From an uncultured Rhodospirillales bacterium (GTDB taxonomy: Bacteria; Pseudomonadota; Alphaproteobacteria; Acetobacterales; Acetobacteraceae), in the NCBI GenBank assembly GCA_903844135.1, contig CAIMSN010000096.1, positions 1 to 64,000 on the forward strand: a stretch of DNA of 64,000 bases, read 5' to 3'. Below the pieces are notes generated by a model. That model was not told where the DNA came from and did not search any database. It saw only the letters and a list, made by a program, of their open reading frames with translations. Each line of letters starts with the position of its first letter. The stretch's first letter is position 1. Positions 48,475 to 55,906 of this stretch are shown piece after piece. The position numbers and the translations under genes were made by a program.

Positions 48475-48483
48475 GCGGCTTTG

Positions 48484-49716
48484 ATGCCGGCCGCCGGGCT
48501 GCGTGACGGACCCTATCCGGTCAAGGCCGCGCGCGACGGCATGCCGGTCCTGGATGCCGGCCGGTTCGGCGCCGGTTCGCACCCTGGCACGCTGATGGTG
48601 ATCGAGAGCGGCACGATGACGCTGTCGCCGGTGCGCTGCCATTCCATTTCCCCCGACCAGGCCGGCGTGGCGCGGCTGCAGCGCGTCGACGCCGAGGCGA
48701 TGCCGATCCAGCGGCCGATCGGCATGCCGGATCGGGGGCCTGGCTTCCGGCCCGCGGTGACTTATCCCGACCTTTCCATCACCCGTCTGCACGACGCGAT
48801 CTGCCTGCCGGGCGGCCTGGTGATCCATGACGACGCGCTGCTGCTGGAGAGTTTCAGCGCACGCTGGGAGGCGGTCCGGCATCGCCATCTGCGGGAGGGG
48901 CCGGAGCTCTGGCACCTCTGCGATCCGGCGCCGGTCGGCGGCAGGATCGAAGGCCCGGTGCTGTATCTCGACCACCAGCACATCGACTGGTTCGGCCACG
49001 TGCTGCTCGATCTGCTGACTCCCGGCTGGGCCTACGAGTACGGCCTCGCCTATCTCGGATTGCAGCGGCTGCGCGTGCTGTGCTCCGCGCCGCGCCATGG
49101 CTTCGTGCGTCGGCTGGTCGCGGCGCTCGGGGTGCCGGAGGGCGACATCGTCTGGATCGACCGGCCGGTGCGCTGCGACATGCTGCTGGTCGCGACCAAG
49201 GCGCTGCAGATCCAGGATTATGTGACGCCGGCGGCGGTCCGGCTCTGGCACGGAATGCGCAACCGCATCGTGCCGCCGCGCGACCAGGTGCCGTCGCGGC
49301 TGTTCGTCTCCCGGCGGGCGAACCCGACACGGGTCCTGGTCGAGCAAGAGGCGATCGAGGCGCTGTTCGCTGAAGCCGGCTTCACCATCGTGATCCCCGA
49401 ACGGCTCGACATCGACACCCAGATCCGCCTGTTCGCCGGCGCACGGCTGATCGCCGGCTGCAGCGGCAGCAACATGTTCAACATCGCCTTCCAGGCCCGC
49501 GCGGGGGCGATCCTGGTGCTGGTGTCACCCCTTCTGGTGCACTACTCGGAGCAGTTCCTGACCAGCTTCCGGCCCGGCACCCAGCTCGACATGGTCATGG
49601 GCTTCGTCGACGACGCGGAACTCCAGGCGCGGCCGGGCTACGTTCATGCCGACTGGCATCTGGATGTGGCCCTGATGCGCGAGGTGTTGTCGGCGTGGCT
49701 GGCTGGACGGGCTTGA
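48484..49716 (+). CDS. GT61-family glycosyltransferase (DUF563)
   Basis: 410-residue glycosyltransferase of family 61. The C-terminal half carries SRLFVSRRANPTRVLVEQEA, FTIVIPERLDIDTQIRLFA and the GCSGSNMFNIAF motif near residue 326, the family's conserved part; YLDHQHIDWFGHVLLDLL is the usual middle His block. Bacterial members add sugars to capsule or exopolysaccharide. It is the last native gene before the proB island on the left. Confidence 0.85.
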   Translation: MPAAGLRDGPYPVKAARDGMPVLDAGRFGAGSHPGTLMVIESGTMTLSPVRCHSISPDQAGVARLQRVDAEAMPIQRPIGMPDRGPGFRPAVTYPDLSITRLHDAICLPGGLVIHDDALLLESFSARWEAVRHRHLREGPELWHLCDPAPVGGRIEGPVLYLDHQHIDWFGHVLLDLLTPGWAYEYGLAYLGLQRLRVLCSAPRHGFVRRLVAALGVPEGDIVWIDRPVRCDMLLVATKALQIQDYVTPAAVRLWHGMRNRIVPPRDQVPSRLFVSRRANPTRVLVEQEAIEALFAEAGFTIVIPERLDIDTQIRLFAGARLIAGCSGSNMFNIAFQARAGAILVLVSPLLVHYSEQFLTSFRPGTQLDMVMGFVDDAELQARPGYVHADWHLDVALMREVLSAWLAGRA

Positions 49717-49762
49717 CCAACAGCGACCGTCCAGAACCGTAGGACGCCGCCGCGGCGCGACC

Positions 49763-49988
49763 TCAACCCGCCCCCAGCACCAGATCATCCCGATGGATCA
49801 TCTCGTCGCGGCCGCGCCAGCCGAGCAGGGCCTCGATCGCGTCGGAGCGGCGGCCGGCGATCTTCGCGGCGTCGCTGCTGCCGTAGGCCACCAGGCCGCG
49901 CGCTAGCGTCTCGCCGGTTTCGGGCAGCACGCGCACCAGGTCGCCGCGCTCGAACTGCCCGTCGATGCGGCGCACGCCGGTCGGCAGC
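49763..49988 (-). pseudogene. Severed 3' end of proB (PUA domain)
   Basis: Encodes about the last 75 residues of glutamate 5-kinase: VRRIDGQFERGDLVRVLPET, ARGLVAYGSSDAAKIAGRRS and the C-terminal RDEMIHRDDLVLGAG, nearly identical to the complete proB at 54779..55906. No start or kinase domain; homology stops abruptly at 49988. By position next to the unchanged left flank it is probably the original proB tail, displaced by the insertion. Confidence 0.92.
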
Positions 49989-50178
49989 GTTCCAGCGCTT
50001 GTTGCTCGCTATCAAGTAAGACTCTGCAGCCACCCCACTCGTATCGTAGTCGCTTGCGAAGCCACCCTCAGGCGCTGCAGCTTTGCTACATCCGAATCGG
50101 CCCTGGACATCGGTTGAAATCTGGATCTGGCGCACAAAGCCGAGGCGAGGATAGATCACGGCCCGAGATCAGGGTGGT

Positions 50179-50218
50179 TGTATCACTCTAGCAAACGGTC
50201 GTTTGACAGAGTGATACA
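50179..50218. repeat. 40-bp near-perfect palindrome upstream of the endonuclease gene
   Basis: TGTATCACTCT (50179..50189) faces AGAGTGATACA (50208..50218) exactly, and inside them CAAACG faces CGTTTG around GT; only two bases per arm fail to pair. It lies 100 bp before the endonuclease start and close to the left island edge. Candidates: regulator operator, recombination site, or an RNA hairpin. Confidence 0.85.
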
Positions 50219-50317
50219 CCAAAAGCAGAGGACCCTTCCAATTCCCTGCACCCAGGAGCGTCGTTACGCAGCCCATGCTACGCATGTCTCACGCCGATTC
50301 GGAGATAGGGGGAATGC

Positions 50318-51319
50318 TTGGCCAAAGTAGACGACGTGGCAGCGGAGCTGCGTAAGCAGCGTATCAATGAGACCGGCACTCCCATCCCAAACACGCTTCA
50401 GGGTGTCTCAAAACAGAAGGTGCAAGAAGTCCTCGCTCGAATTTCGCTGACCAATCCTGACCTAGTGGATGCCGTCTACTCGTTACTTGATAACGAGACT
50501 GATAGCTGGATGTCCAACGCGCCCAAAAACGCAAAGTTTGCTGACGGTGCAACTACCAGTCAGATCGCTTGTCACATTGGCATTCTCCAACGCGGCAAGA
50601 CCAAGCTGGACCGCGAGGGTCGCGACTACTGGATCAAGCCCCTACGCGATCTCGGCGGCTTCGAAGCTATCTATCTCCACGACGAACAGTTCATCGCCGG
50701 TCATCCCAAGCCTAAGTCGCCATCGTCCGCATACAAGCTAGAAGACGCCTTCCGCATGATTCTGGCGGCACCAGACGGACAGTGGCAGAAAATGTTGGCG
50801 CAGTGGGCCAGCAAAGATGTGGCGCGCCAGCGGCTTGATTTTCAAGCCGAGATTGCCGAGGCTTCGAAAGGTATAGTCGTGAACAATCACGGCGAGCTAA
50901 TTAAAGCTAGCGTCGAGCATTATGCCGCCAAGTTCTTGCCGGGCTTCAAGGTGCTATACGTTGATGACAGTGACGGCGACCGGGTGAGCGGCGCGGAAGC
51001 GCAAGCGATGAAGGAAGCCGGCGTCGGTATTACACTCGGGGACGCTTGGCCCGACGTACTATTATGGAATCCTAAGACCAACTGGCTGTGGGTGATCGAG
51101 GCCGTCACTAGCGACGGCGAGGTTGATATTAACAAAGTCACGAAAATGACAGAGTTTGCCAAGCGCCATGGCAAAGCAGGCGTAAGCTTCACAACCACCT
51201 ATCTTACCTGGAAGGACGCTGCCGCACGGCAGGGCACCCATCGCAACATCGCCGTCGGTACCTATATCTGGATACAAGCCGACCCTTCCAAGCAACTACT
51301 CGTCGAATCATTTGATTAA
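50318..51319 (+). CDS. BsuBI/PstI-family type II restriction endonuclease
   Basis: 333-residue endonuclease. The C-terminal catalytic domain shows the PD...EAV arrangement of the BsuBI/PstI family: WPDVLLWNPKTNWLWVIEAV (244-263, D246 and E261), then TSDGEVDINKV and FTTTYLTWKDA. The N-terminal about 180 residues are helical and would form the recognition part. By family the target is likely CTGCAG. Start is TTG at 50318 with GGGGGA 5 nt upstream; the next Met is residue 65. Convergent with the methylase gene, overlapping 4 nt at the stops. Confidence 0.88.
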   Translation: MAKVDDVAAELRKQRINETGTPIPNTLQGVSKQKVQEVLARISLTNPDLVDAVYSLLDNETDSWMSNAPKNAKFADGATTSQIACHIGILQRGKTKLDREGRDYWIKPLRDLGGFEAIYLHDEQFIAGHPKPKSPSSAYKLEDAFRMILAAPDGQWQKMLAQWASKDVARQRLDFQAEIAEASKGIVVNNHGELIKASVEHYAAKFLPGFKVLYVDDSDGDRVSGAEAQAMKEAGVGITLGDAWPDVLLWNPKTNWLWVIEAVTSDGEVDINKVTKMTEFAKRHGKAGVSFTTTYLTWKDAAARQGTHRNIAVGTYIWIQADPSKQLLVESFD

Positions 51320-52827
51320 AGCAACTTCATAATCGCGATATCGATTGCATCTAGACAGGCGGGTGCCAGCCGGCCGAGCTTTTCGAGTTGGTCCTGCGTC
51401 GGATAATGTAAGTTACGCAGGTCGGTCGCGTTGACCTGCGTGTGGCCAGAGAACAAACGGAAATAGTCATCGACGGCGGTTGAGTTTAGATAGGCTGCAA
51501 GCCCAAGCGCGATCTCCGCTGGCAAACCCGCGCCGTCTTTATGGAAATAGTTGAGGTGATTTTCGAGCCCTGCTGGTTCCGGCGCCTCATAGACGGACGC
51601 GACGATACGACGCCGCTCCTCCTTGGCGGAAAAGCGCTTGGTCAGCACGTATCGCCCGGCTGGAACTAGCTGCGGTCGCGTGTAGTCGTCGACCGCGATC
51701 GCGTTGTGTTTGCGAAAGCCCGCAATAGGCCAGACAACACCGCCGTGTTTCATGTGCGCGGGATAAATCAGCGGTGCAGTGCCCTCGCCGCTATCTTTGC
51801 GTAGCTGGTTCTTGGCGCGAAAATCCACCACACGCCCAGTCGATACCTGGATACCCAGGTCTGCTAGAGTGCACGGTAACGCCTGCACCCGGACGGTGAG
51901 ATCAGCGTCGTGGTCGGAAATCGCGAGCCGAATAAAAGCGTGTGAATCTCCTGGCCGCACCACCTCATCCATTGGGACCTCACGCGATTCGCCAACGTCT
52001 GTCTTAAGACGCACAGTGGCAGATCGCGCCTTACCCTTACGAGAGTGGAATATAACGTTTTCTTGTAGTACGTCGTCGTCAGCAAATGCCTTTTTTCTCG
52101 ATTGGAATACAAGTAGTTCTAGCAGGGCAGTTTTTGAAAGAAGGTGATGGCGGAAAGGTTCGTAGTAAGGCCCATTGCAGAACGAGCGTGGAGTGATAGC
52201 CACAAGCTCTCCGCCGTCCTCAAGCTGATTTACCGTGAGCGCTACAAAGGCCGAGTAGAGGTTTACCGTCTCAATGCCTGATTTGCGTAGTGCAGAGCGC
52301 CACCGCGAGGCCGTGTTGATTTTACCATAAGGTGGATTGAGGATTGCACGGTTGAACGAAAGTAAACTCGCTAGGAGCGGTTCCGACGACGCTAGGATGT
52401 AGTCATCAAGAACGATCTTGGACGTGAACCCAACACCATGCTCAGCGCAGGCTCTGGCGCAATTTTCTAGTGTACCGGCAAGATGCGTCGCCATGTCCTC
52501 GTCAATCTCGAAGCATGTCGCAGAGATGGATGCCGGCTGAACTGGCCTTGATAGGGCCTCGGCGACAAACGCGGCGGTAAGTGCCCCAATGCCGGCTCCA
52601 GGGTCTATCAGCCTGACCTCACGTGGCATTTGGCCGAACGTGGACGCCATGCGCTGGGCAATCGGAGCTGGTGTCATGAACTGACCAAGCTTGCTGCGAC
52701 GGATGACATCCAAACCAGGCGATATTTCAAGTCGGATTTCATCTGCACGGGCAGTAGCGGAGCGAGCGAGCGTCGATTTTTTAAGTGGCTTAGGTGCGGG
52801 AGGCCAAGCACGGGTAGCTTCGCTCAT
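51316..52827 (-). CDS. N6-adenine DNA methyltransferase (M.BsuBI type)
   Basis: Protects host DNA from the adjacent endonuclease. 503 residues: KLGQFMTPAPIAQRMA (46-61) is the gamma-class start, DPGAGIGAL (75-83) the SAM loop, ILNPPYGK (162-169) the catalytic NPPY of adenine methylases. The C-terminal half (target recognition) has GHTQVNATDLRNLHYPT, typical of BsuBI/Eco57I-like enzymes. Divergent from the RHH gene with an operator-like region between. Confidence 0.9.
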   Translation of the reverse strand: MSEATRAWPPAPKPLKKSTLARSATARADEIRLEISPGLDVIRRSKLGQFMTPAPIAQRMASTFGQMPREVRLIDPGAGIGALTAAFVAEALSRPVQPASISATCFEIDEDMATHLAGTLENCARACAEHGVGFTSKIVLDDYILASSEPLLASLLSFNRAILNPPYGKINTASRWRSALRKSGIETVNLYSAFVALTVNQLEDGGELVAITPRSFCNGPYYEPFRHHLLSKTALLELLVFQSRKKAFADDDVLQENVIFHSRKGKARSATVRLKTDVGESREVPMDEVVRPGDSHAFIRLAISDHDADLTVRVQALPCTLADLGIQVSTGRVVDFRAKNQLRKDSGEGTAPLIYPAHMKHGGVVWPIAGFRKHNAIAVDDYTRPQLVPAGRYVLTKRFSAKEERRRIVASVYEAPEPAGLENHLNYFHKDGAGLPAEIALGLAAYLNSTAVDDYFRLFSGHTQVNATDLRNLHYPTQDQLEKLGRLAPACLDAIDIAIMKLL

Positions 52828-52880
52828 TTAGTGATCTCCGTTCTCCGCCACAGCGATTGCTTTACCACGGCAGCGTGTTA

Positions 52881-52933
52881 GATATCCAGATATCATGGTC
52901 AGTCAAGCTTTGCAATCTGGATATCTGGATATC
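52881..52933. promoter_or_regulatory. Paired GATATC boxes between methylase and RHH genes
   Basis: GATATCCAGATATC (52881..52894) and its exact reverse complement GATATCTGGATATC (52920..52933) are separated by 25 nt, in the 110-bp divergent promoter region. Each box is itself nearly symmetric. This is the kind of site a ribbon-helix-helix dimer binds, so the gene starting 5 nt later is the obvious candidate. Confidence 0.7.
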
Positions 52934-52937
52934 GAGA

Positions 52938-53450
52938 ATGGGTGATCGACCTATGAACGATGGCTTGTCTCCTGCCGTTGAAGAGGCGCTATTCCAGCGC
53001 TTGCTCCAACGGATGATAAAGGCTGGTCAAGGCCTAACCTCTGAAATTGTGCCAGAATCGATAGATACCGCAGCTTCCCGCAGCCTCGTCACGGCAGAAG
53101 CAGTTGAAGTGGCTAGCGACCTGATCGCTGCATCGAATGCTGCAGATTTTATCCAGAAGTATGGGATCGAGGCGCTTAGTGCGCTCCGCCTAATAGATCA
53201 TCCAGATGTTTCCGGACCGGTAACGGTCGCTGCCGCACAAAAAATAGTCGGAAATCGACGGAACAAGGAGGACCCAATCGCACAACTCCTGTTTCGCGTG
53301 CCCGAACACTTACGAGACGATGTCAAGCGGCTCGCCTTGGATGAAAAGCGGCAGATGGACGAGCTTCTCACCGAAGCTGTTTTAGATTTGCTCCTTAAGC
53401 ATGGTCGAATGCCAAAGGCGTTTCAGAAAGGATTACCTGCCCAGCCCTAG
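52938..53450 (+). CDS. Ribbon-helix-helix-type protein
   Basis: 170 residues, no named family. The C-terminal LLFRVPEHLRDDVKRLALDE followed by KRQMDELLTEAVLDLLLKHG reads as a ribbon-helix-helix DNA-binding domain of the Arc/ParG kind; the N-terminal part is helical (VEEALFQRLLQRMIKAGQGL). ATG at 52938; another at 52953 is possible. Codon use is less GC-biased than in core genes. It probably controls the restriction-modification genes, in place of a classical C protein. Its end overlaps the relaxase remnant by 18 bp. Confidence 0.7.
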   Translation: MGDRPMNDGLSPAVEEALFQRLLQRMIKAGQGLTSEIVPESIDTAASRSLVTAEAVEVASDLIAASNAADFIQKYGIEALSALRLIDHPDVSGPVTVAAAQKIVGNRRNKEDPIAQLLFRVPEHLRDDVKRLALDEKRQMDELLTEAVLDLLLKHGRMPKAFQKGLPAQP

Positions 53451-54700
53451 CTCGCGCTCCTGCCTTTGCCGGTCGAGGTCCTGCTCCGGCTCTCGCCGCA
53501 GTCCCCGCTGTTCCCGCTCTCCGGCCCGCGCTCGCTGCCGCTCGGCCTCGTTCACTTCCCGCTCAACCCGCTGATCCCAACCCGCGCTGAGCGCCATTCC
53601 ATCACGCCCCTGCACGAAGCTGCGGGCCAACTCATCCAGCCCGGCCTGGTGCTCGCGCCCGACACCGGGCACGGTCATGTTTCTGCCGCTACTGACGGCG
53701 CGAGACGCATTCCGTATGCCCTCTTCGCCAAGCCGTTCGCTGGCTGCGGCCATGAACCCGTCCAGCTTGTTGGCGACGCGCGGACCGGCCCGGTCCTCGC
53801 GCCAGGCGGCGGATACCAATTTCTCCTTCCGCCGCTGCCGGGTGTCATAGCGTTCGCCCTCGCGCGGTATCTCCGCCGTCAGCCCGGCCATCTGCACGGC
53901 CTTGAGCGTGTCTAGGGCCGCATTCGATAGCCCCCCGCACCTCGACGGCATCGCGCGCTCGCTGCTGCTCCACCTCGCCGGTATGGTGGCGCACGGCAGC
54001 ATCCCGTGCCGCCGCCTCGCGCTCCAGGCTGCCGCCGATCGCGGCGGCGGCCAACTTGGCGCGCGCGATCGTCCTGAGCGACACGGCCGGCAAGCCATTC
54101 CTCCCGGCCGCGCAAGGTGCCCAACACCTCCGACCCGTCCTCCCGCAAGGTCCGTGCGGCGGCGCGAGGATGGCGGCCGGATTTCTCTATCAGCTTGTCC
54201 AGCCCATCGGCCGCCTGGCCGGGGTCGCGGTAGGCACCCCGCAGATAGTCCTTCTGCGCCTCCACCTCCCGCATGGCGGCGGGTGCCCGGTCGGCAATCC
54301 GCGCCAGCTCCTCGGATGAGGTGCTTCGGCCCAAGCTGTCCCGGTTATGGCCGGTTGGATCACGCCACGCCGGCAGCAGCGGCGACCGCGCGCGTTCAGC
54401 CTCCTGGGCGTTTGCCGCCCGTGCTGCGGCCGGGCGTTCCACCGCTTCCGGAGACACCGGACCCTCGCGCCGCGTGTTGTATGTCAGCGCGTCCCGCAGC
54501 TTGCGGCCCGGTCCTCGCGCTTCTGCTCCTGTGTCAGCTCGTCGCACGTCGGCCACGCGATCGATGCGGCCCGCACATCGCCGCGCGCCATCTGCCGGGC
54601 AAGCTGGCTGGCGTCGCGCGCCGTCTCCCGCACGACCTTCCCCATCTCCAAGGCTCCCTTCCGGAACCCTTGAATCAGCGACGCCGCCGCGCCGCTAGAG
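53433..54700 (-). pseudogene. Frameshifted relaxase-like C-terminal remnant
   Basis: Several frames carry pieces of one protein in order: GFRKGALEMGKVVRETARDA, LRDALTYNTRREGPVSPEAV, AQKDYLRGAYRDPGQAADGL, then in another frame ARAKLAAAAIGGSLEREAAA, then in a third LDTLKAVQMAGLTAEIPREG and a charged tail ending RELGLGR. At least three frame changes are needed. The helical, Arg/Glu/Ala-rich composition resembles the C-terminal region of TraA/MobA-type conjugative relaxases. No relaxase catalytic motifs are present. Assignment is tentative; decay is clear. Confidence 0.5.
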
Positions 54701-54715
54701 CTTATTGAGTACGGA

Positions 54716-54758
54716 CCCTAGGGCCTCAGGCCCCAGCGGGTCCAGGGCAGAGCCCTGG
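54716..54758 (+). repeat. Composite double-hairpin repeat, copy 2
   Basis: CCTAGGGCCTCAGGCCCCAG, then CGGGTC, then CCAGGGC-AGA-GCCCTGG: same layout as 42575..42618. It lies inside the island, 20 bp before the proB stop. Confidence 0.75.
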
Positions 54759-54778
54759 CGTGCCGTTCATTCACGACC

Positions 54779-55906
54779 TCAACCCGCGCCCAGCACCAGA
54801 TCGTCCCGATGGATCATCTCGTCGCGGCCGCGCCAGCCGAGCAGGGCCTCGATCGCGTCGGAGCGGCGGCCGGCGATCTTCGTGGCGTCGCTGCTGCCGT
54901 AGGCGACCAGGCCGCGCGCCAGCGTCTCGCCGGTTTCGGACAGCACGCGCACCAGGTCGCCACGTTCGAACTGCCCGTCGATGCGTCGCACCCCGGCCGG
55001 CAGCAGCGAGCCGCCGCCGGTCAGCGCCTTCGCCGCCCCGGGATCGATCGTCAGGCTGCCGGCCGGCGGCAGGCCGGCGGCGATCCAGCGCTTGCGGGCG
55101 GAGCGGCCGCCGGGCTCGGCCAGGAACCAGGTGCAGCGCGCGCCGTCCTGCAGCGCGCGCAGCGGATGCGGGATGGCGCCCAGCCCGATGGCCATCGCGC
55201 AGCCGGCGCGCGTGGCGATGCCGGCCGCCAGCAGCTTGGTGCGCATGCCGCCGGAGGAATAGCCCGGCGGGGGCGCGCCGCCCATCGCCTCGATCTGCGG
55301 CGTCAGTGCGGCGATCACCGGCACATGCGTCGCACCCGGGTTCTGGCGCGGGTCGGCGGTGTAGAGCCCGTCTATGTCGGACAGCAGCAAGAGCTGGTCG
55401 GCCTGGATCATCTCGGCGACCCGCGCGGCCAGCCGATCGTTGTCGCCGAAGCGGATCTCGGCGGTGGCGATGGTGTCGTTCTCGTTGATCACCGGCACGC
55501 AACCGAGCCCGAGCAGGGTGGAGAGGGTGGCGCGGGCATTGAGGTAGCGCCGGCGATCCTCGGTATCGTCCGGCGTGAGCAGCAGTTGCGCGGCGACCAG
55601 CCCGTGCGCGGACAGGGCGGCGCTCCAGGCCTGCGCCAGGCGGATCTGCCCGACCGCGGCGGCGGCCTGCTTCTCCTCCAGGCGCAGCGTGCGCCGCTTC
55701 AGCCCGAGCGTATGCCGGGCCAGCGCGATCGCGCCCGACGAGACCACGATCACCTCGACGCCGCGCGCCCTGAGCGCGGCGATGTCGGCCGCCACCCCGT
55801 CCAGCCATTCGGTGCGCGGCCGGGCCTCCTCGGCATCCACCACCAGGGCGCTGCCGATCTTGACCACCAGGCGACGCGCCTTGCCGAGGCGGGGCAGGTC
55901 GGCCAT
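54779..55906 (-). CDS. proB: Glutamate 5-kinase
   Basis: First step of proline synthesis. 375 residues: kinase domain with RLVVKIGSALVV, EVIVVSSGAIALARH, INENDTIATAEIRFGDND and SSGGMRTKLLAAGIA, then a C-terminal PUA domain (from about 285) with RIDGQFERGDLVRVL. ATG at 55906 lies 5 nt after the obgE stop, giving an obgE-proB operon. Its last 231 bp are duplicated at 49758; the tail now in use is probably the one brought by the island, and the protein is intact. Confidence 0.96.
   Translation of the reverse strand: MADLPRLGKARRLVVKIGSALVVDAEEARPRTEWLDGVAADIAALRARGVEVIVVSSGAIALARHTLGLKRRTLRLEEKQAAAAVGQIRLAQAWSAALSAHGLVAAQLLLTPDDTEDRRRYLNARATLSTLLGLGCVPVINENDTIATAEIRFGDNDRLAARVAEMIQADQLLLLSDIDGLYTADPRQNPGATHVPVIAALTPQIEAMGGAPPPGYSSGGMRTKLLAAGIATRAGCAMAIGLGAIPHPLRALQDGARCTWFLAEPGGRSARKRWIAAGLPPAGSLTIDPGAAKALTGGGSLLPAGVRRIDGQFERGDLVRVLSETGETLARGLVAYGSSDATKIAGRRSDAIEALLGWRGRDEMIHRDDLVLGAG

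Follow-up and report, generated by a model that had tools for sequence, protein, structure and literature searches.

The window analysed here, a 64,000-nt stretch of contig CAIMSN010000096.1 from an uncultured Rhodospirillales bacterium, carries a restriction-modification (R-M) system in a 4,785-bp insert enclosed by two copies of the 3' end of proB, the gene for glutamate 5-kinase. We think it probable that this insert came from an Acetobacteraceae plasmid, as the arc that carried its defence cargo, and was stranded in the chromosome. The insert keeps the frameshifted 3' end of a relaxase gene, R-M cargo with both genes open and a palindrome, and other plasmid backbone is absent: no replication, partition or transfer genes were found among its open reading frames (ORFs), which makes it a remnant rather than a plasmid. 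The window's genome (G000) belongs, as does G001, to the genus Lichenicola (Acetobacteraceae).

The repeated unit of 231 bp consists of the final 226 nt of proB plus 5 nt, homology ending 5 bp past the stop codon. Its two copies align without gaps and with 11 mismatches, and the original prediction, which had called this duplication from the letters of the window, was exactly reproduced in position and size. The right copy is the one in use by an intact proB; the left copy has kept its reading frame and stop codon, yet has no gene in front of it. Misassembly of the two tails appears unlikely, because the longest identical stretch they share is 79 nt and longer k-mers separate the copies; the remaining direct-repeat families of the 9.5-kb region measure at most 34 nt (20 largest of at least 60). 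The insert had also been described as AT-richer than its surroundings. That is true of positions 49989-53450 (54.7% GC, against about 69% in both flanks) and does not extend to the relaxase part at 53451-54773 (70.8%), and this difference between the R-M part and the relaxase part makes the insert a mosaic.

An R-M system and a relaxase-like wreck had been proposed inside the insert, and both were borne out by profile matches and by tblastn with a relaxase. The remnant is 83-85% identical in DNA to the relaxase sequence of G002, and G010 encodes an intact relative of 1196 aa with MobA_MobL and helicase domains. A 400-aa fragment from G002 found relaxase ends at 13 loci in 11 of 100 genomes, the window's included. 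R-M genes are found no more than about 2 kb from the end of the relaxase in G000, G002, G010, G047 and on contig C15 of G053, with another gene in between at some of these five loci; at the other relaxase loci this proximity was judged by eye from ORF lists. A sixth locus may be G053:C46, a contig that stops at the relaxase and showed no terminal overlap. The order relaxase 3' end, R-M genes, palindrome is common to the window, G002, G010 and G047.

The palindrome recurs in other genomes of the family. Its core matches positions 2160-2200 of contig C4 of G001, the Lichenicola cladoniae plasmid NZ_CP053711.1, and G047, G010 and G002 also have palindromes just past their R-M genes, with one good arm in G010 and a degenerate form in G002. 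When one arm was searched with up to 2 mismatches in 397 genomes of the family, it was found at 9 sites in 8 genomes (the window's and 7 others), and the reversed pattern, used as control, in none of the 397. With the degenerate G002 copy and one metagenome-assembled genome (MAG) the sites number 11, five of which (G000, G001, G002, G010 and G047) had been found ahead of the scan. A serine-resolvase gene, supported in G053 by PF00239, starts 18-19 bp past the palindrome in G053:C46, G344:C2 and the L. cladoniae plasmid. When the DNA beyond the window's palindrome, its first 20 nt left out, was aligned to the resolvase region of G053, the score was 34 (mean 10.3, sd 1.7 and maximum 17 in 200 shuffled sequences). 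The alignment sets the resolvase start at 50159, leaving an 18-bp gap to the palindrome, as in G053 and G344. Thus, judging from this alignment, the insert probably retains the 5' end of a resolvase gene beside the palindrome. We propose that the palindrome is a candidate resolvase binding or crossover site that also marks the edge of a cargo slot, or else an operator only.

Some other matches were set aside. Three matches of one palindrome half in IMG/VR fall within large ORFs that are unrelated, and we regard them as coincidence, and a 23-nt match in G000:C15 falls in unrelated open frames and was attributed to chance. In G053:C33 (L151 329-370) the palindrome is present and no cargo is annotated. 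The stretch between palindrome and resolvase in the MAG (L149 1262-2072) contains a small antitoxin-like ORF; its counterpart in G021 is L153 2516-3287.

Defence cargo, R-M or other, stands beside the palindrome at seven of the eight readable sites (11 sites in all), a tally that is not an independent sample, since it was the window itself, or R-M or relaxase genes next to them, that led to five of the sites. Cargo was read on the far side of the palindrome from the resolvase or, where no resolvase was present, next to the R-M genes; at three sites (G021, G053:C33 and the MAG) cargo was not readable or not annotated. Type II R-M systems occupy this place in G000 and G047, an N6-methylase with a specificity-like protein in G002, type I hsdM/S/R genes following the relaxase in G010, and two type II methyltransferases with an NgoFVII-like protein in G053:C46. 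The G001 plasmid carries a TIR protein, a ThsB-like TIR protein and an MmeI-type R-M system, and G200 (L154 3772-8196) a PDC-S26 nuclease, a WYL protein and an IetA-like AAA ATPase, which probably serve in defence. The slot of G344 (L150 3402-6716) holds a methyltransferase, an MFS exporter and a radical-SAM/SPASM protein, perhaps a peptide-modification cargo. The 127-bp overlap between the ends of contig C2 of G344 is what a 12.7-kb circle would give, and the contig runs in the order relaxase, cargo, palindrome, resolvase; its ParA and RepA are named from their likeness to G053 proteins, which are Pfam-supported. What follows the cargo on the L. cladoniae plasmid is mobC and not the relaxase described above. 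Defence genes apparently have a single slot on the plasmids from which the insert came. The parent would be a plasmid encoding a serine resolvase, ParA, RepA, mobilization proteins and a MobA/L-type relaxase, with the 42-bp palindrome upstream of the resolvase gene, and its cargo slot would reach from the relaxase 3' end to the palindrome. The features of the window are listed in Table 1.

Table 1. Features in and around the insert (positions in the window; strand + or -, a dot where none applies).
Feature	Positions	Strand	Basis
Orphan left copy of the proB 3' end	49758-49988	-	95% identical to 54774-55004
Probable decayed serine-resolvase 5' end, cut off ahead of the proB tail	50021-50158	-	local DNA alignment to G053 and G344
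42-bp imperfect palindrome, two 20-bp arms, 2-bp centre	50178-50219	.	17 of 20 arm positions self-complementary
BsuBI/PstI-type restriction endonuclease, 333 aa, open frame	50318-51319	+	PF06616, E 1.3e-23; PADLOC REase_II, 3.7e-20
Eco57I-like DNA methyltransferase, 503 aa, open frame	51316-52827	-	PF07669, E 3.2e-9; PADLOC MTase_II, 4.6e-164
Possible ribbon-helix-helix protein	52857-53450	+	sub-threshold Pfam matches only
Inverted repeat GATATCCAGATATC / GATATCTGGATATC between the divergent methyltransferase and ribbon-helix-helix-like genes	52881-52933	.	sequence reading
Frameshifted 3' part of a MobA/L-type (TraA-like) relaxase-helicase, aa 728-1196 of 1196	53436-54636	-	tblastn with the intact G010 relaxase
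Terminator-like repeat, dispersed in the genus, adjoining the right tail	54718-54759	.	copies in 5 of 5 genus genomes
Right copy of the proB 3' end, in frame with proB	54774-55004	-	repeat comparison
Intact proB (glutamate 5-kinase), 375 aa	54779-55906	-	TIGR01027, 1.8e-115

The cargo of the window is an R-M pair of the BsuBI/PstI type, with a PF06616 endonuclease beside an Eco57I-like methyltransferase that is probably adenine-specific; the two genes are convergent and overlap by 4 bp. R-M systems act against phages, and CTGCAG, which is known as the recognition site of this type, may be that of the window's pair as well. Relatives of the endonuclease occur in 15 of the 397 family genomes, the window's included, and the closest other one is that of G382 (55%), at whose locus the scan found no palindrome. 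The ribbon-helix-helix (RHH) protein of the original prediction is still possible as a weak call, with matches to Antitox_RHH (E 0.003, 18.1 bits for a cut-off of 27.2) and Arc (E 0.011, 16 bits for 20.4) that both lie below the curated thresholds. Its ORF starts at 52857 or, more likely, at the ATG at 52953. In the 100 genomes searched, it had, besides itself, one weak match, in G010 (E 5.6e-4), and tblastn with this protein and with a 221-aa relaxase fragment gave no plasmid match. The inverted repeat next to the RHH-like gene is a possible operator, so that the protein may regulate the R-M pair.

How the pair came to lie in proB can be outlined as follows. Some plasmid-borne type II R-M systems would kill plasmid-free cells, and cells with a chromosomal R-M copy would survive; after plasmid loss, restriction killing would therefore select cells that hold the R-M genes in the chromosome. 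As a tentative view, the proB duplication may be the scar of entry, left by one-sided homologous recombination in proB with DNA of a sister lineage and by an illegitimate join at 49988/49989. The incoming tail would now complete proB, and with such an entry a proB-specific integrase is not needed.

The differences between the tails bear on this view. Eight of the 11 fall at third codon positions, three at first and none at second (P = 0.009 for at least eight at the third if positions were equal). A drifting orphan should change more at first and second positions, and we therefore favour two selected alleles joined by recombination. We accordingly lean, with 11 sites only, towards recombination with a sister allele over local copying. 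The terminator-like repeat that adjoins the right tail, which has many copies in G002 and G003 and fewer in G000, fits a chromosomal neighbourhood that arrived with this tail, and it was not seen just after proB in the congener sequence inspected. The original prediction held that the incoming DNA brought its own tail and that comparison with the phylogeny would tell which copy this was. The mostly synonymous differences fit the first idea and fall short of proving it, as derived changes are found in both copies: with the four congeners as outgroups, four changes are derived on the left, three on the right, and four could not be polarised. No single new copy emerges from this, and we count it against our reading that these changes fail to separate import from local duplication.

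The presence of derived changes in both tails would also suit a purely local event, in which a staggered break or a template switch during fragment capture copied 231 bp of the resident proB, and the copies diverged later. R-M insertions with long and variable target duplications are indeed reported in the passages of PMC3031569 and PMC3154945 drawn on here. An orphan made in this way should have drifted at all positions, whereas eight of the 11 differences fall at third positions and none at second, and the left tail has an intact frame and stop. We thus hold local duplication to be rather unlikely.

Comparison with relatives shows whether proB is a preferred target. The four congeners each have one proB tail match of at least 187 nt and one tail protein match; these congeners are only 77-79% identical, and their neighbouring genes differ. 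G003 has a single tail and no insert, and about 50 bp separate its tail from the conserved small gene, the one that precedes the glycosyltransferase gene GT61 in the window; in G004 a different gene is found at that position. The 12-13 kb read around proB contained no GT61 in any of the four congeners, so that the arrangement which the original prediction expected of relatives lacking the insert, one tail right beside GT61, is seen in none of them. In the window it occupies 48481-49716, between the conserved small gene and proB, and its best congener relative lies elsewhere in G003 (C68, 59%). Since the neighbours differ among congeners, the region downstream of proB is variable in the genus, GT61 included.

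At the level of the family (397 genomes sampled from a larger group), the tail protein was found in 363 genomes, four of which had two matches (G000, G055, G149 and G293), and the window's genome is the only one with both on one contig. The double tail of G149 was rejected as a 127-bp contig overlap. In G055 and G293 the two matches are on different contigs, in frames of 438 and 554 aa and of 240 and 769 aa, respectively; the long frames of G055 are possibly two proB genes. Short proB-tail frames were seen in G310, G286, G260, G180 and G317, within about 650 bp of a contig end in all of these except G180. A 26-nt motif of the proB C-terminus, used for shorter tails, matched 254 of the 397 genomes and was double in the same four; in the 143 genomes that it did not match, short duplications would escape. 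The search of viral contigs gave no proB tail, with a single-protein query that reaches close relatives only. Four phage records match the tail at no more than 41% identity. Related modules lie in G002, G047 and G200 on contigs other than that of proB, and none showed a flanking gene-tail duplication like the window's. Flanking pairs of 23-29 nt (74-79%) in G002, and of 30-43 nt (65-74%) with a short GCTG-rich repeat in G047, were counted as chance; G200 had none. Targeted literature queries, short of a full survey, gave no description of proB as an integration site. Thus, proB is not a recurrent integration target in the family genomes sampled. The suggestion that its 3' end might be a hotspot, and that tail duplications might flank different cargo elsewhere, finds no support in these counts. 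The original prediction was right that no integrase is visible: no integrase or recombinase was recognised between the tails from ORFs and profile matches, in a block that is foreign and plasmid-derived. The three PF00589 genes of the genome are on other contigs. Its contig C71 carries a phage-type integrase in a 481-aa open frame.

Two further accounts, both of which bring a proB tail in from outside, fare worse. A plasmid carrying a proB tail from a close relative could have entered by a single homologous crossover of the Campbell type and later lost its backbone. This accounts for tails at both ends and for their 5% divergence, but it requires deletions that stop at or near the tails on both sides, or a proB tail that replaced the whole backbone. 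Moreover, the 14 plasmid records that match the 3' half-kilobase of proB are of other genera, and their matches run past the tail; we regard this account as improbable. In the phages e14 and 21, which insert in icd, a gene tail borne by the element restores the target gene. Such an integrative element, entering site-specifically with its own proB 3' end and losing its integrase afterwards, would give the right geometry (a whole gene, an orphan tail that ends just past the stop and slightly diverged copies), and a tyrosine recombinase does lie 300 bp beyond the palindrome on the 39-kb contig of G010 (L125 16239-17228, 44-bp terminal overlap), but this account is the most improbable, given that no integrase was recognised between the tails, that no other of the 363 genomes has a second tail on one contig (shorter tails being visible in 254 only), that the viral contigs gave no relative within the reach of the query, that both insert ends resemble internal fragments of plasmid genes rather than the ends of a complete element, and that the three sister modules lack such a duplication.

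The stranded plasmid arc, which we retain as the probable origin of the insert, has its own difficulties. Neither an insert-free strain of the same species nor a parent plasmid with the same R-M pair was found. The relaxase edge is ragged among the chromosomal copies, which retain aa 728-1196 (window), 589-1193 (G002) and 819-1196 (G047), and R-M genes are near the relaxase end at only five of 13 loci. The palindromes of G002 and G010 are degenerate, with 4 and 7 and with 1 and 8 arm mismatches, respectively, and the second arm of G021 fits only after a one-base shift. The palindrome is not close to the resolvase everywhere: its distance to the resolvase start is about 0.77 kb in G021 and the MAG, and the resolvase gene of G010 lies some 15 kb off. 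As a protein, the resolvase remnant matches at 34% over 82 aa (E 0.07), with an alignment that reaches into the proB tail, and the G344 slot carries radical-SAM/MFS cargo. In addition, the passages of PMC3031569 used here describe laboratory movement of R-M genes that was mostly mediated by insertion sequences (IS), with almost none in an IS-less host, a pattern that does not fit the present locus, where IS elements were not searched for. The resolvase distances and the IS point slightly lower our confidence.

A broader idea would be that Acetobacteraceae plasmids have a dedicated and exchangeable defence slot, in which R-M, TIR and other modules are exchanged by recombination at the centre of the palindrome and dropped into chromosomes, stranded cassettes like the proB insert being by-products. 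We consider it doubtful, and the resolvase distances and the IS point lowered its probability as well. No description of such a slot beside a resolvase-linked palindrome surfaced in limited literature queries, and a query for Acetobacteraceae plasmids with such modules was without match.

R-M insertion with a long target duplication is already known, and the proB case resembles the reports. According to the parts of PMC3031569 and PMC3154945 consulted, which cite Nobusato 2000 and Furuta 2010, the target duplications that accompany R-M insertion are long and variable. In the PaeR7I case, also in PMC3031569, a plasmid R-M system moved to the chromosome, its dependence on restriction was put down mainly to selection, IS elements mediated most of the products, and practically none formed in an IS-less host. 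As in these cases, the window has an R-M pair between long direct copies of resident sequence, no recognised integrase and a type of gene that is reported on plasmids and reported to move to the chromosome; unlike them, as far as those parts go, it has plasmid scraps and copies that are 5% diverged with a synonymous bias. Homology-facilitated illegitimate recombination, in which one end is joined by homology and the other illegitimately, is described from transformation and conjugation experiments in the portions of PMC3240628 used, and would be a candidate process for the window. Such recombination has been proposed to leave displaced resident genes in type VI secretion system (T6SS) arrays, in the corresponding part of PMC5361080. 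For SGI1, the portion of PMC12217951 used here places In104 beside the resolvase res site and reports that R-M genes replace toxin-antitoxin genes in some relatives. In both SGI1 and the plasmid group, accessory genes lie upstream of the serine-resolvase gene. In104 differs as an integron cluster that has Tn402-type ends and 5-bp repeats, whereas the cargo here is mostly defence, and transposon ends were not looked for.

The window resembles elements that integrate in gene 3' ends in that the duplicated tail leaves the target gene whole, and it differs from e14 and 21 in having no recognised integrase, no complete element and no recurrence at proB. Our study thus argues against proB as a hotspot, at least in the family genomes sampled, and presents a worked example of a chromosomal R-M system whose plasmid source is still legible. 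The short palindrome might be used as a tag by which to find defence cargo on plasmids of the Acetobacteraceae. Compared with the known systems, what is new here is the readable plasmid source, together with a candidate defence slot beside a resolvase-linked palindrome.

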